A stretch of DNA of 64,000 bases, taken from assembly GCA_021799435.1 (NCBI GenBank), contig JAJZAN010000002.1, positions 1 through 64,000 of the forward strand. Direction: 5' to 3'. This DNA is from Bacillota bacterium. GTDB taxonomy: Bacteria > Bacillota > Sulfobacillia > Sulfobacillales > Sulfobacillaceae. This document shows positions 2,062-34,250 of this stretch, piece after piece. The position numbers and the translations under genes are program-made. Below the pieces are notes generated by a model. That model did not search any database and was not told the DNA's origin. It was given only the letters and a program-made list of their open reading frames with translations. How positions within the stretch are numbered: the stretch's first letter is position 1; each line of letters begins with the position of its first letter.

Positions 2062-2466
2062 GTGAAGGTGTTGATCGACACCAACATTCTCCTCTCCGCT
2101 TCATTAAACCCCTCGGGGGTTCCCGATCAAGCCTACCGGAAAGCGGTCACTCATCCGAATGAGGGGTGCATTACCGATCAAACCATTGACGAATTGCGGC
2201 GGGTGTATAATCGTAAGTTTCCGCACAAAATTCCGGCCTTGGAACGCTTTTTGGCGCTGGTCTTGACGGTTGTTGAGGTGGTTCAGACACCCGACGGACG
2301 CATAGCGGATGAAGTTCTCGTGCGGGATGCTTCGGATCGCCCCATTCTTCGCGCGGCGGTTGCCGCGCATGTGGACATACTCATTACGGGAGACAAGGAT
2401 TTTCTGGAATCGGGTATTACGACGCCGCACATTATGACGGCGCGAGATTTTGTTCAAATGGACTAG
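2062..2466 (+). CDS. VapC-like PIN-domain ribonuclease toxin
   Basis: A 134-residue single-domain PIN protein, the usual VapC length. It shows D6 (LIDTNILLSA), E44 (TIDELRRVY), D92 (RDASDRPILRAA) and D111/D113 (ITGDKDF), matching the acidic quartet that binds metal ions in PIN nucleases. The start is GTG, one base after the stop of the AbrB-type gene, so translation is probably coupled. Together the two form a type II toxin-antitoxin system whose toxin would cut RNA, usually a tRNA or rRNA in characterised VapCs; the target cannot be read from sequence. It belongs to a different PIN subfamily from the protein at 700-1278. Confidence 0.88.
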   Translation: MKVLIDTNILLSASLNPSGVPDQAYRKAVTHPNEGCITDQTIDELRRVYNRKFPHKIPALERFLALVLTVVEVVQTPDGRIADEVLVRDASDRPILRAAVAAHVDILITGDKDFLESGITTPHIMTARDFVQMD

Positions 2467-2828
2467 CGGAGCGATCGTTTGACCTACCCGATGGATCGGA
2501 GGGCGGGAGCATACTTCAGCCTTGCCTGACTCTTGATTCGGTGGTTCCGGAATGGCCCAATCTTTAACCGGAGGGCGCGGATCGTCATTGTGGTGGTCCG
2601 TCAGGGGAGAAGGCATCGTGCGTGATTCCAGACTATCGGAGTGACGGCATGGACATGTGAATGTGGGATTTTCGGTCCCTGATTCTCCAACAGGAAGCAT
2701 CGTTTCGCATCAAACCTGTGGGCCCCTTTTCTTCGATCCTTGACGGTCCGAATCATGCACATACGGGGGCAATAGCGCGTTTAGCGAGTTACCGGCCGTC
2801 CGTCGATAAGCCTCGTCACTGACACGAT
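2467..2828. other. Gene-free stretch after the VapBC-like pair
   Basis: No credible coding region on either strand. A long reverse frame (2104-2700) runs across the PIN gene as its shadow. No strong terminator, promoter or repeat was seen. Confidence 0.4.
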
Positions 2829-3362
2829 TTAGGGTCCTTCTCCAGGGATGTAGTGCTCGGAGTAGGTCGTCACGCGCCAGTGTCCATGAACACGCTGTAA
2901 ATAGGCGACACCGGCTACCCCGTCGACGACCGGCCTCGCATGGTGAGTACCGCCGGCAAAGGCGACTGTCGCCCGCCATGCGGCGCGGGCCCACGGACCC
3001 ACGGCCACGACAGACTCCAAGTGCACATGGATGCGTTCATACGTAGTCCGATTGTTTTTGAGGGCTGCCATGGTCACGCGATAGATGTGACGGTCTCGGG
3101 TGATGAGCGGTGATCCTGGTGCAAAGGTCTTCCCGAGGACATGGGATTCGGCACTCCACAACTGACGCTTCATCGTCGGTGACGGGGTTTTTCCCAAGGG
3201 AAGCACCTGTGGCGACAGCACTAACGGATTTTCCAACGCCACCATCCGGTGCAAAACCGGTTGGATGGCGGCTCGGTCGCGGCCCGAGGTGATGGTGACG
3301 CCGACAACACCGATGGCCAATACGCCCACTCCACCGATCGCCACTAACCGGCCCAAGCGCAT
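2829..3362 (-). CDS. Secreted or membrane-anchored protein of unknown function
   Basis: A 177-residue protein whose first 31 residues contain a single hydrophobic segment (RLVAIGGVGVLAIGVVGVTI) after one arginine, that is, a signal peptide or N-terminal anchor. The rest is soluble, basic and beta-rich, with a conserved-looking end (VDGVAGVAYLQRVHGHWRV). No family recognised. It could be a lumazine-binding-like or NTF2-like export protein, but that is a guess. The ATG is preceded by GAGGTTGGGG. It stands alone, divergent from the gene at 3649, in the accessory region between the insertion-sequence ends. Confidence 0.6.
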   Translation of the reverse strand: MRLGRLVAIGGVGVLAIGVVGVTITSGRDRAAIQPVLHRMVALENPLVLSPQVLPLGKTPSPTMKRQLWSAESHVLGKTFAPGSPLITRDRHIYRVTMAALKNNRTTYERIHVHLESVVAVGPWARAAWRATVAFAGGTHHARPVVDGVAGVAYLQRVHGHWRVTTYSEHYIPGEGP

Positions 3363-29173: not shown

Positions 29174-29812
29174 TTAAATGCCCCAGGCACTAAAAAGATG
29201 AAGCAGAAAGGGTCCGGCAAAGCACTCCAGGGCCGTACCCACCAAGGTGACCAGTGCCATTACAATCACGAGTCCGGTAAAGAAGGCGAAGCTCTTGCCC
29301 AGCGGCGTGCCATCCTGACGGGTACGAGGCGAGATAAGGTCCCAGGAGAACCCCAATGCGACCGCTGATGCGAGAACCAGGGCTGGCAGGAGAAAGACAT
29401 TGGCAATCCCCATAGTCGCCAAACCCACGCCAGCTCCCTGCCAGTGCATCGTGCTAACCAAAAATGCGGCGCCAAATCCCAAAACAAACCCTCGAAAGAA
29501 CACCAGCATTAGCACCAGGGGCATGCCGGCCACGGATACTCCCAATAGATACAAAAGTCCAATGGTCTTTAAGTTTTCTGCCAGCGCCGGTTTGAAGACA
29601 TGCTGGTAGGTAGGCTTGGCCGCCTCCACATCCAGGAAGTGTCGAATATAAGCCAACAGCGACAATTTATCGCCCGCTGTGAGCGTGCCGACCGCCAGCA
29701 TGCCGAACAGAATCCCTACCAGCACGGCCGCAATGGCGAGATATAGCTGCGTCGTGTAGCGGCCAAAGTGAGCCTGCAAGTGATTCCCGGGCGCCGTGAC
29801 CACGTACTCCAC
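29174..29812 (-). CDS. spoIIM: Stage II sporulation protein M
   Basis: A 212-residue polytopic membrane protein of the SpoIIM family. SpoIIM works with SpoIID and SpoIIP in the DMP machine that thins septal peptidoglycan and drives engulfment; it is needed to localise SpoIIP and SpoIID. A first helix lies at about 22-42, followed by an extracytoplasmic loop and four more helices, with the conserved segment ENLKTIGLLYLLGVSVAGMP and FRGFVLGFGAAFLVS. Length matches Bacillus SpoIIM (about 214). In Bacillus the nudF-spoIIM neighbourhood is conserved, and here nudF precedes it in the same direction with a 33-base gap. Confidence 0.93.
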   Translation of the reverse strand: MEYVVTAPGNHLQAHFGRYTTQLYLAIAAVLVGILFGMLAVGTLTAGDKLSLLAYIRHFLDVEAAKPTYQHVFKPALAENLKTIGLLYLLGVSVAGMPLVLMLVFFRGFVLGFGAAFLVSTMHWQGAGVGLATMGIANVFLLPALVLASAVALGFSWDLISPRTRQDGTPLGKSFAFFTGLVIVMALVTLVGTALECFAGPFLLHLFSAWGI

Positions 29813-29845: not shown

Positions 29846-30403
29846 CTAGACCTGAGGGCGGCGCCCGTAAAGCCACCACAGTACCCCGATTAGCAAGATG
29901 CCGTTCTGTATCCGGCCTTGAGCCAGATACGCCGCGGCCTCGTCGCGCGTCCAGGCTGTGACCGCAATGTCCTCGTCGGGATCTAAGTCGCGGGTCCCCA
30001 AGCTGAGCCCGGAGGCCGAAAACAACGCAATCCGCTCCGTGCTGTAGCCAGGACTCGCATAGTATTCGAACAGGGGCGCCCACCTCTGTGCACGGAAGCC
30101 GGTTTCTTCGGCCAGTTCCCTCTGGGCTGCCGTCAGCGGATCTTCGCCCGCGTCAATCAGACCGGCCGGGAGTTCGTCCAAATAAGCGGATACCGCCCAG
30201 CGAAACTGCCGTACAATGACCAAGCGGCCGTCGTCCCGTTCCGCCACGACAGCCGCCGCATGGGGACGCTCCACCACTTCGCGGGTGCTGGCACCGCCGT
30301 TGGCAGTGACCGGATCCACCCTGACGCTAAGCACCCGTCCTTGAAACACCACCGATGATGGTCCACGTCGTTCCTCCACGGATATCTGCCCCCTCTGGCT
30401 CAT
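29846..30403 (-). CDS. nudF: Nudix hydrolase, ADP-ribose pyrophosphatase type
   Basis: A 185-residue Nudix protein. The Nudix box is complete at about residues 86-108 (GEDPLTAAQRELAEETGFRA, carrying the REx2EE core that binds magnesium). The upstream VRQFRWAV and the glycine/proline spacing PAGLIDAGEDP are typical of the NudF/ADP-ribose pyrophosphatase branch, which cleaves ADP-ribose to AMP and ribose 5-phosphate. Same-strand pairing with spoIIM mirrors the Bacillus order. Substrate specificity is inferred from subfamily. If ADP-ribose is the substrate, the ARH-like protein at 3649 would be a functional relative, but the two genes are far apart. Confidence 0.92.
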   Translation of the reverse strand: MSQRGQISVEERRGPSSVVFQGRVLSVRVDPVTANGGASTREVVERPHAAAVVAERDDGRLVIVRQFRWAVSAYLDELPAGLIDAGEDPLTAAQRELAEETGFRAQRWAPLFEYYASPGYSTERIALFSASGLSLGTRDLDPDEDIAVTAWTRDEAAAYLAQGRIQNGILLIGVLWWLYGRRPQV

Positions 30404-30456: not shown

Positions 30457-30579
30457 ATGGAGCATCTCGTGAAATGGGGTAAAGGGCCGGAAATTCTGGC
30501 TTGGCTCAGGACTTTGCCCTTAACCTTAACGGTCAAAGACTATATCGCCATGCTCGACCACCAGACTAGGCAGGCTTAA
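30457..30579 (+). CDS. Possible 40-residue small protein
   Basis: An ATG at 30457 lies 6 bases after GGGAGG and opens a 40-codon frame ending in TAA at 30577-30579. The predicted peptide is mildly basic and amphipathic, with one leucine/threonine-rich stretch (AWLRTLPLTLTVKDYIAML). No family recognised. It is divergent from nudF and its last 14 bases overlap the 3' end of the Hfq-like gene on the other strand. The good ribosome-binding site is the only positive evidence, so this may be chance. Confidence 0.4.
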   Translation: MEHLVKWGKGPEILAWLRTLPLTLTVKDYIAMLDHQTRQA

Positions 30580-30859
30580 TCCAGCGCAGCGACTGTTTGA
30601 ACACCAGCATTGGCGCGCCATTGGAGTCCAGTTGCAGGCTGTACGTGTCATACCGCTGCAACACCCCTTGGAGGACCGTACCGTCGTCAAAGGACAATTC
30701 TAAAGCCACGGCGTTGTCAATCCACTCTTGGTAAAGCGGATCCTGCGCCGAGGTATGGCGAGGATTCAGCACGCCGGATGGCTTCTTCTTACTATTCCCA
30801 GGAACCCGCACCGGCGCCGTGCTATTCCGGGGCGGAACCTCGATTCCGCGGCGGCTCAT
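30566..30859 (-). CDS. Hfq-like LSm-fold protein with N-terminal extension
   Basis: A 97-residue protein whose C-terminal half is an LSm/Hfq domain. QDPLYQEWI (from Q39) matches the Hfq N-terminal helix with the Q8-D9-P10 signature. The Sm1 strands (LELSFDDGTVLQGVLQRYDTYSLQL) follow, and the Sm2 end is MLVFKQSLRWIKP. Typical Hfq has YKHA at Sm2; here it is FKQS, so the histidine that binds uridine is replaced. The usual flexible C-terminal tail is missing, and a basic 36-residue N-terminal tail (GNSKKKPSG) is present instead. Probable RNA-binding ring protein of uncertain ligand. Overlaps the gene upstream by 4 bases. Confidence 0.75.
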   Translation of the reverse strand: MSRRGIEVPPRNSTAPVRVPGNSKKKPSGVLNPRHTSAQDPLYQEWIDNAVALELSFDDGTVLQGVLQRYDTYSLQLDSNGAPMLVFKQSLRWIKPA

Positions 30860-31557
30860 GACACCCCTCCCATCTCACCCAAAACCGGAGGCTTAGACCC
30901 GCTGAGCTTGCGGTTCACCGCATCCAGTACTGCGCGCACACTGGCTCCGGGTCCATCGCCACGCTCTTCCGCCGCGCCGATGAGCAGACTCTCCCGACGC
31001 CGCTCGTCAAACTGCGTGAGCCCCACTAATACCACCGAACGATTGGCCAGTGTCGCGCGGCGGATTTCCGCCAGGACCACCGGGGCAGGGAGTCCCGGCA
31101 CTTTATTGACCGCTTCGACGGCGGCCCAAGCCATGACTTGAAAATACTGGCTGGGCATGTACCGGCCGCTCCACTCCCCTTGCACCCGCTCGCTCTCGTC
31201 TTCGCCCCATTGCAGCGTGACGCGCGTATAGGCGGTATAGTTCAGCGAATCCGTATCGATATGGTATTCAAAAATTCTCAGCCGACGGGTGGCCTCCAAT
31301 GCCGATTGTTGCGGCTCGCCGGACACAATTTGCGCCACCGACACTCGTTTGTGGTCCACACGTAAGTTCCATTGCGCCAGCAGGGCGCTCTCCACGTCGC
31401 GGACCACTTGCTTCGGAGCCCGCTCCACACTGGTGAGCACATGGATTTCTTCCACCGCGCCCCAGTCATTAACCGAAACGGCGCACTTCAACACCGCAGG
31501 AAGCTGGCAGATGAGCTGCTCCATTTCCTCAACGGCTACCTCGTTCACACCATCCAA
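30856..31557 (-). CDS. Conserved-looking protein of unknown function, co-translated with the Hfq-like gene
   Basis: A 233-residue soluble protein that I do not recognise. Its N-terminal third has an ACT- or Asp23-like alternation, ending in APKQVVRDVESALLAQWNLR (about 46-65) followed by VDHKRVSVAQ. A second module (about 90-225) contains a beta-hairpin pair and a helix (MAWAAVEAVNKVPG), then ATLANRSVVLVGLTQFDERRRESLLIGA. The 4-base ATGA overlap with the Hfq-like gene downstream shows that they form an operon. Codon use and open frame length support it as real. It may be a regulator or partner acting with the LSm protein; that is inference from the operon only. Confidence 0.75.
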   Translation of the reverse strand: MDGVNEVAVEEMEQLICQLPAVLKCAVSVNDWGAVEEIHVLTSVERAPKQVVRDVESALLAQWNLRVDHKRVSVAQIVSGEPQQSALEATRRLRIFEYHIDTDSLNYTAYTRVTLQWGEDESERVQGEWSGRYMPSQYFQVMAWAAVEAVNKVPGLPAPVVLAEIRRATLANRSVVLVGLTQFDERRRESLLIGAAEERGDGPGASVRAVLDAVNRKLSGSKPPVLGEMGGVS

Positions 31558-31575
31558 TCGCCATTCTCCTTTAAA

Positions 31576-31613
31576 TTAAAACGGAGGATACCGACATGCT
31601 TCGGCATCCTCCG
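31576..31613 (-). terminator. Rho-independent terminator after the leucine-type dehydrogenase
   Basis: On the minus strand, CGGAGGAT(g)CCGA and TCGG(t)ATCCTCCG form a long stem around AGCATG, followed by TTTTAATTT. It ends the dehydrogenase transcript before the Hfq-like operon. Confidence 0.8.
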
Positions 31614-31642
31614 AGGAAAATCCTTTCTTTAGTGGCGGGAAA

Positions 31643-34070: not shown

Positions 34071-34250
34071 CTCGACACGATTCGACAAAGACACGCCGAT
34101 GCGTGAAGGCCCGGGACAGCACTTAATCACCCCGAGACCTTTGGCAATCCTAACCTTTCCCCGCCTTGACGCCACTTTGTGCGGTCGGGGAGATAGGGGA
34201 TTTTGACGAACGATTCTCTGCCATCCATGAGAAATCCTTCTGCTGTCGAA
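34071..34250. promoter_or_regulatory. Cluster of Spo0A-box-like sites upstream of spo0A
   Basis: Exact matches to the 0A-box core TGNCGAA lie at 34081-34087 (minus strand, TGTCGAA), 34204-34210 (plus strand, TGACGAA) and 34244-34250 (plus strand, TGTCGAA). A near match TGTCGAG is at 34077-34071 on the minus strand. Three exact 7-mers in under 180 bases ahead of spo0A suggest autoregulation, as known in Bacillus. Confidence 0.6.

Follow-up and report, generated by a model that had tools for sequence, protein, structure and literature searches.

Two overlapping genes in a Sulfobacillus-type genome raise the question of what an Hfq-like protein with an extra N-terminal tail does beside a protein that matches no family in Pfam or NCBIfam. 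The initial annotation of this window (the whole 64,000-nucleotide stretch of DNA analysed) had proposed an atypical Hfq-like protein, here called P1, joined to its partner, P2, by an ATGA overlap, and had suggested that the two might form an RNA-binding pair with unusual specificity. Both open reading frames and their overlap were recovered on the minus strand as annotated, in the following setting:

30566..30859, minus strand: P1, a divergent protein of an N-tailed Hfq lineage, 97 aa (open reading frame, Pfam, model and residues)
30856..31557, minus strand: P2, the partner protein, 233 aa, TTG start (predicted ferredoxin-like N domain and LeuA-type regulatory C domain)
30856..30859, minus strand: ATGA stop/start overlap of P2 with the Hfq-like gene P1
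31643..32764, minus strand: Glu/Leu/Phe/Val-type amino-acid dehydrogenase, upstream of P2 (context; Pfam/NCBIfam matches)
29846..30403, minus strand: NUDIX hydrolase of the ADP-ribose diphosphatase type, downstream of P1 (context; Pfam/NCBIfam matches)
29174..29812, minus strand: spoIIM, downstream (context; TIGR02831, 126 bits, above cut-off)

The full gene order is spoIVB, spo0A, amino-acid dehydrogenase, P2, P1, NUDIX hydrolase and spoIIM, the first two being genes which we take, by eye, to be spoIVB and spo0A. P2 lies upstream of P1, and the two are adjacent on the same strand in all 29 genomes compared (one from another family). Only this genome and its nearest relative have the exact ATGA overlap; elsewhere the ends of the two matches are separated by 19–371 nt.

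P1 falls slightly below the threshold of the Pfam Hfq profile (PF17209; E = 1.4e-5, 25 bits, cut-off 27), which is exceeded by 18 of the 28 P1 carriers in the same family, and does not reach that of the NCBIfam Hfq model (TIGR02383; 25.8 bits, cut-off 61.7). The only other family matched in a Pfam/NCBIfam scan was Hfq_1 (PF21979), again below its cut-off (20.1 bits, cut-off 27). An AlphaFold monomer based on a 25-sequence alignment consists of a helix and five strands, with a pLDDT of about 96 over residues 41–97. When this model was compared with the PDB using Foldseek, the best 50 matches listed were all Hfq, at 0.7–1.1 Å except for one at 2.0 Å, and the best match superimposed at 0.8 Å over 60 columns. 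The modelling thus supports an LSm/Hfq fold for P1, and the annotated view of it as an atypical Hfq is borne out by the predicted monomer, whose nearest solved structures are Hfq, by the fold search and by the conserved residues. The sequence features noted at the outset are also confirmed: QDP is kept (residues 39–41), FKQ (residues 87–89) replaces YKH, the protein stops directly after the core with no C-terminal tail, and a basic tail is present at the N-terminus. Short C-terminal tails are common among Hfq proteins of Gram-positive bacteria. The protein can be divided as follows:

30746..30859, minus strand: basic N-terminal tail of P1, residues 1–38, net charge +7 (alignment and charge)
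30569..30745, minus strand: LSm/Hfq core of P1, a helix and five strands (Pfam, model, fold search and residues)

The residues before Q39 carry a net charge of +7 and the core −4; across 29 P1-type sequences the tail ranges from +1 to +7 and the core from 0 to −8. The tail is probably disordered (pLDDT 55–65 in the model), contains a motif conserved in the alignment ([I/W][V/I]E[V/I]P..R....R[V/I]) and, in the comparison with the nearest relative, is more conserved than the core (dN 0.083 versus 0.175).

The core retains Q39 (equivalent to Q8), Y73 (F42) and K88 (K56), while Q89 replaces H57. In published Hfq structures, the uridine pocket is made up of Q8, F42, K56 and H57, the last of which can contact the 3′ hydroxyl, and Tyr25 stacks with A-rich RNA on the distal face (PMC5379935). 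None of the 29 P1-type sequences varies at the positions equivalent to Q8, D40, F/Y42 and K56, position 42 always being Tyr, and position 57 is Ser in 14, Gln in 12 and His in three. The rim arginine R16 is found in none of the 29, the position being always hydrophobic, and the distal-face Tyr/Phe at position 25 is likewise absent from all of them, with no aromatic residue there in any sequence. Taken with the published roles, this pattern suggests that selection has maintained the greater part of the uridine pocket but not the other surfaces, and recognition of 3′ ends could be weaker because the residue that contacts the 3′ hydroxyl is mostly gone. Compared with canonical Hfq (PF17209; Staphylococcus aureus 1kq1/1kq2 and Caulobacter crescentus 6gwk), P1 shares the LSm fold (about 0.8–0.9 Å), the QDP of the helix and the Q8, F/Y42 and K56 pocket residues, but has Gln or Ser for H57, no rim arginine and no distal Tyr25, and differs further in its basic N-terminal tail, its locus and its separate branch in the tree described below.

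The initial annotation had called for a check of the genome for a second, canonical hfq and of relatives for the gene pair. No other Hfq-like gene, canonical hfq included, was found in this genome, leaving P1 as the sole one, and P1 is present beside P2 in 28 of the 34 family genomes, among them contigs of Sulfobacillus thermotolerans, S. benefaciens and S. harzensis. Its position is constant, with P2 on one side and a NUDIX gene on the other, inside the spo0A–spoIIM cluster. Measured against the nearest relative, dN/dS is 0.10 for P1, which is under purifying selection, and 0.055 for P2. Presence in 28 of 34 genomes, the constant same-strand position beside P2 and this low dN/dS mark P1 as more than a chance reading frame: it is a real, conserved Hfq variant, ordinary in fold and unusual in its history and residues. 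No copy was detected in the other six family genomes, one of which is only 63% complete; four of the six have P2 followed directly by the NUDIX gene, and one shows only a weak P2 paralogue. The sister family, f2, carries decayed versions of P1 at the same locus, some barely detectable. This further decay and the six genomes lacking a copy indicate that P1 is dispensable.

In other members of the class, a canonical Hfq (105–120 bits) follows miaA. Hfq was absent at all 14 miaA loci examined from the order, and no miaA-linked canonical hfq was found in the genomes of P1's family. Five genomes of that family (G010, G012, G016, G019 and G020; 95–97% complete) have no detectable Hfq of either kind. 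A wider search of 154 genomes of the class recovered further N-tailed Hfqs, beside P2 in families f150 and f153 and at other loci in f152, f157 and f158. N-tailed Hfq-like proteins stand at loci without P2 in L208, L210–L215 and L221, and in several f158 genomes the gene adjoins those for a membrane protein and a TetR-like regulator. In one metagenome-assembled genome (G414, locus L141), a canonical Hfq linked to miaA coexists with an N-tailed form linked to P2, although contamination is possible. In a tree of 53 cores, built on 61 columns with long branches and an unsure inner order, canonical Hfq (including the Escherichia coli and Bacillus subtilis proteins) is set apart from all N-tailed forms by a branch supported at 100/99, and the P1 group is supported at 97/77. 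Given this split and the genome with both types, the simplest reading is that of a second, old lineage of Hfq, which seems to have taken the place of a canonical gene lost in several groups; contamination of that assembly is the main caveat. In one Sulfobacillus-family genome (L219, about 2422–2780, plus strand), another small Sm-like reading frame, with an FKHGVLSVRP motif, lies close to an integrase-like gene, possibly on a mobile element.

A single copy per family genome, with none at miaA, would also result if an ordinary hfq had left its place at miaA and drifted at a different site under relaxed constraint without gaining a new function. Hfq can be dispensable in Firmicutes, a Bacillus anthracis triple hfq mutant having no growth-rate defect (PMC5348863), and the domain does decay further in f2. 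We nevertheless consider such drift somewhat unlikely, since dN/dS is low, the pocket is invariant and the new tail is conserved; the co-occurrence of both types in one genome, where the canonical copy still follows miaA, weakens it further, as does the deep branch in the tree, albeit on only 61 columns. The Hfq1 and Hfq3 proteins of B. anthracis are comparable to P1 as divergent extra Hfqs in Bacillota, Hfq3 having a truncated C-terminus (PMC5348863), but in most of its carriers P1 is the sole copy; it also bears an N-terminal tail and belongs to the spo0A–spoIIM region.

The loss of the rim and distal residues and the replacement of H57 could instead mean that the LSm ring has given up RNA binding and docks to a partner protein, perhaps P2. 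There is a precedent in cyanobacterial Hfq, which acts in complex with PilB and EbsA and whose RNA ligands are unknown (PMC8092324), and P1 resembles the cyanobacterial Hfq-related proteins (PF21979, NF047718) as a divergent Hfq weakly matched by their profile. However, it scores below the cut-offs, has an N-terminal tail and no known link to pili, and keeps in every sequence a uridine pocket that a pure docking module would not need. Most genomes bearing P2 have no Hfq neighbour, and we judge this adaptor role unlikely.

The nature of P2 was approached through its model (pLDDT 87), in which two domains were recognised:

31321..31551, minus strand: N-terminal domain of P2, residues 3–79, its best-conserved part (ferredoxin-like by fold comparison)
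30892..31287, minus strand: C-terminal allosteric domain of the LeuA/citramalate-synthase type, residues 91–222 (fold comparison, PF08502)

The N domain resembles cation-efflux C-terminal domains and the C domain of acetyl-CoA synthetase (Z 7–9), a common arrangement. The C domain matches the isoleucine-bound regulatory domain of LiCMS (3f6h) with Z 10.0 over 119 residues at 3.2 Å, and that of LeuA with Z 8.4. PF08502 itself finds no match in P2 and matches three of 26 P2 relatives (best E 4.8e-4). P2 is close to the LeuA/citramalate synthase allosteric domains (3f6h, 1sr9) in the predicted fold of residues 91–222 (Z 8–10), but lacks the catalytic barrel and is fused to the ferredoxin-like domain. 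We predict a ferredoxin-like domain joined to a LeuA-type, leucine- or isoleucine-binding regulatory domain, for which amino-acid sensing is a fair guess from the model. No RNA-binding family or fold was found in P2 by Pfam, NCBIfam or Foldseek, and the ribosomal-protein rows of the Foldseek output were rejected (query TM-score <0.2, rmsd >10 Å). Of the proposed RNA-binding pair with unusual specificity, the specificity is plausible for P1, which retains the uridine pocket but has lost H57 together with the rim and distal-face residues; the casting of P2 as an RNA binder is not supported.

P2 is moreover not specific to Hfq. Its profile has matches in 130 of the 299 genomes drawn from across the phylum, usually with no hfq nearby. 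In other members of the class it follows genes that we take by eye to be 2-oxoacid:ferredoxin oxidoreductase genes and precedes DUF3866-like, NUDIX and spoIIM genes, the oxidoreductase and DUF3866 labels having been assigned to reading frames used as tblastn queries. In most genomes a further, weaker paralogue of P2 is encoded elsewhere; in L066 (about 2633–3257, plus strand) it lies between hpf-like and secA-like genes. A literature search returned nothing relevant on P2 or on Hfq in Sulfobacillus.

These data bear on whether the two proteins assemble into a complex whose RNA binding is gated by the LeuA-type domain, acting as a sensor of leucine or isoleucine. Such a complex would fit the invariable adjacency of the genes, the likeness of the C domain to isoleucine-bound LiCMS and LeuA regulatory domains, and the amino-acid dehydrogenase or 2-oxoacid oxidoreductase genes upstream, but P2 is far commoner than its pairing with P1, is kept in four family genomes that lack the Hfq gene, and is missing from the loci of several other N-tailed Hfqs. 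On the sequence comparisons, the pair is a conserved neighbourhood in which a complex is possible, and a gating complex seems to us distinctly improbable. More elaborate still, and very improbable, is an amino-acid-responsive Hfq, in which P2 bound to branched-chain amino acids would control an N-tailed Hfq working through its proximal face only, so that nutrient state would set the handling of small RNAs or terminator tails at sporulation entry.

Co-expression is suggested by the region preceding P2, where two elements interlock:

31599..31626, minus strand: putative sigma-H promoter, AAAGGATTT-N12-GCCGAAG, with one mismatch, some 41 nt ahead of the start codon of P2
31582..31613, minus strand: 13-bp hairpin with a T tail, overlapping the sigma-H-like promoter

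Spacings of 11–12 are usual for sigma-H promoters. The promoter was matched by consensus only (RNAGGAWWW-N12-RNNGAAT, hexamers from PMC8510167). The pattern occurs before P2 without mismatch in eight loci (one with spacing 11), and 17 of the 24 P1-carrying loci have no more than one mismatch. Two relatives that lack P1 also have the pattern in front of P2, and it is therefore a feature of the P2 operon, not of P1. A full-length SigH is encoded in the genome. A second sigma-H-like match lies between spoIVB and spo0A (34214–34238, minus strand), as one would predict were spo0A also under a sigma-H promoter in this genome. The hairpin region (31573–31630, minus strand) covaries strongly, with compensatory changes over 12–13 bp. 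The hairpin occurs once per genome, is present where the dehydrogenase gene precedes P2 and went undetected in family genomes lacking that arrangement; an Rfam search with it gave no match. A riboswitch or autoregulatory Hfq target was rejected on these grounds, and the hairpin probably terminates transcription of the dehydrogenase gene that lies upstream. A terminator combined with a sigma-H promoter fits better because the conserved AGGAATTT...CGAA has the fixed spacing of a promoter.

The best reading of these sequences is that P1 is a U-tail-binding Hfq variant made at sporulation entry. With moderate confidence, we propose that it is a second-lineage, N-tailed Hfq and the sole Hfq-like protein found in Sulfobacillus-type genomes, a binder of U-rich RNA co-expressed with P2 under sigma-H. 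P1 would form a hexamer holding U-rich single strands, such as terminator tails, on its proximal face, and the basic tail, leaving the ring on that face, may supply the RNA contacts given by rim arginines in ordinary Hfq. Distal-face binding of A-rich mRNA would have been largely abandoned. P2 and P1 would be produced together from the sigma-H promoter at entry into stationary phase and sporulation, with P2 probably an amino-acid-responsive regulator linked to P1 by co-expression in the first place and only perhaps by a physical complex.

Hfq is usually regarded as a single gene of uniform architecture. In an entire group of acidophilic spore formers, a distinct N-tailed lineage has apparently replaced it and retains one of the three RNA-binding surfaces of Hfq. 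This would be a natural case of separation of function, with Hfq reduced to a uridine pocket and a basic tail, and the predicted domains give an initial lead on P2, which occurs across Bacillota and has no Pfam family.
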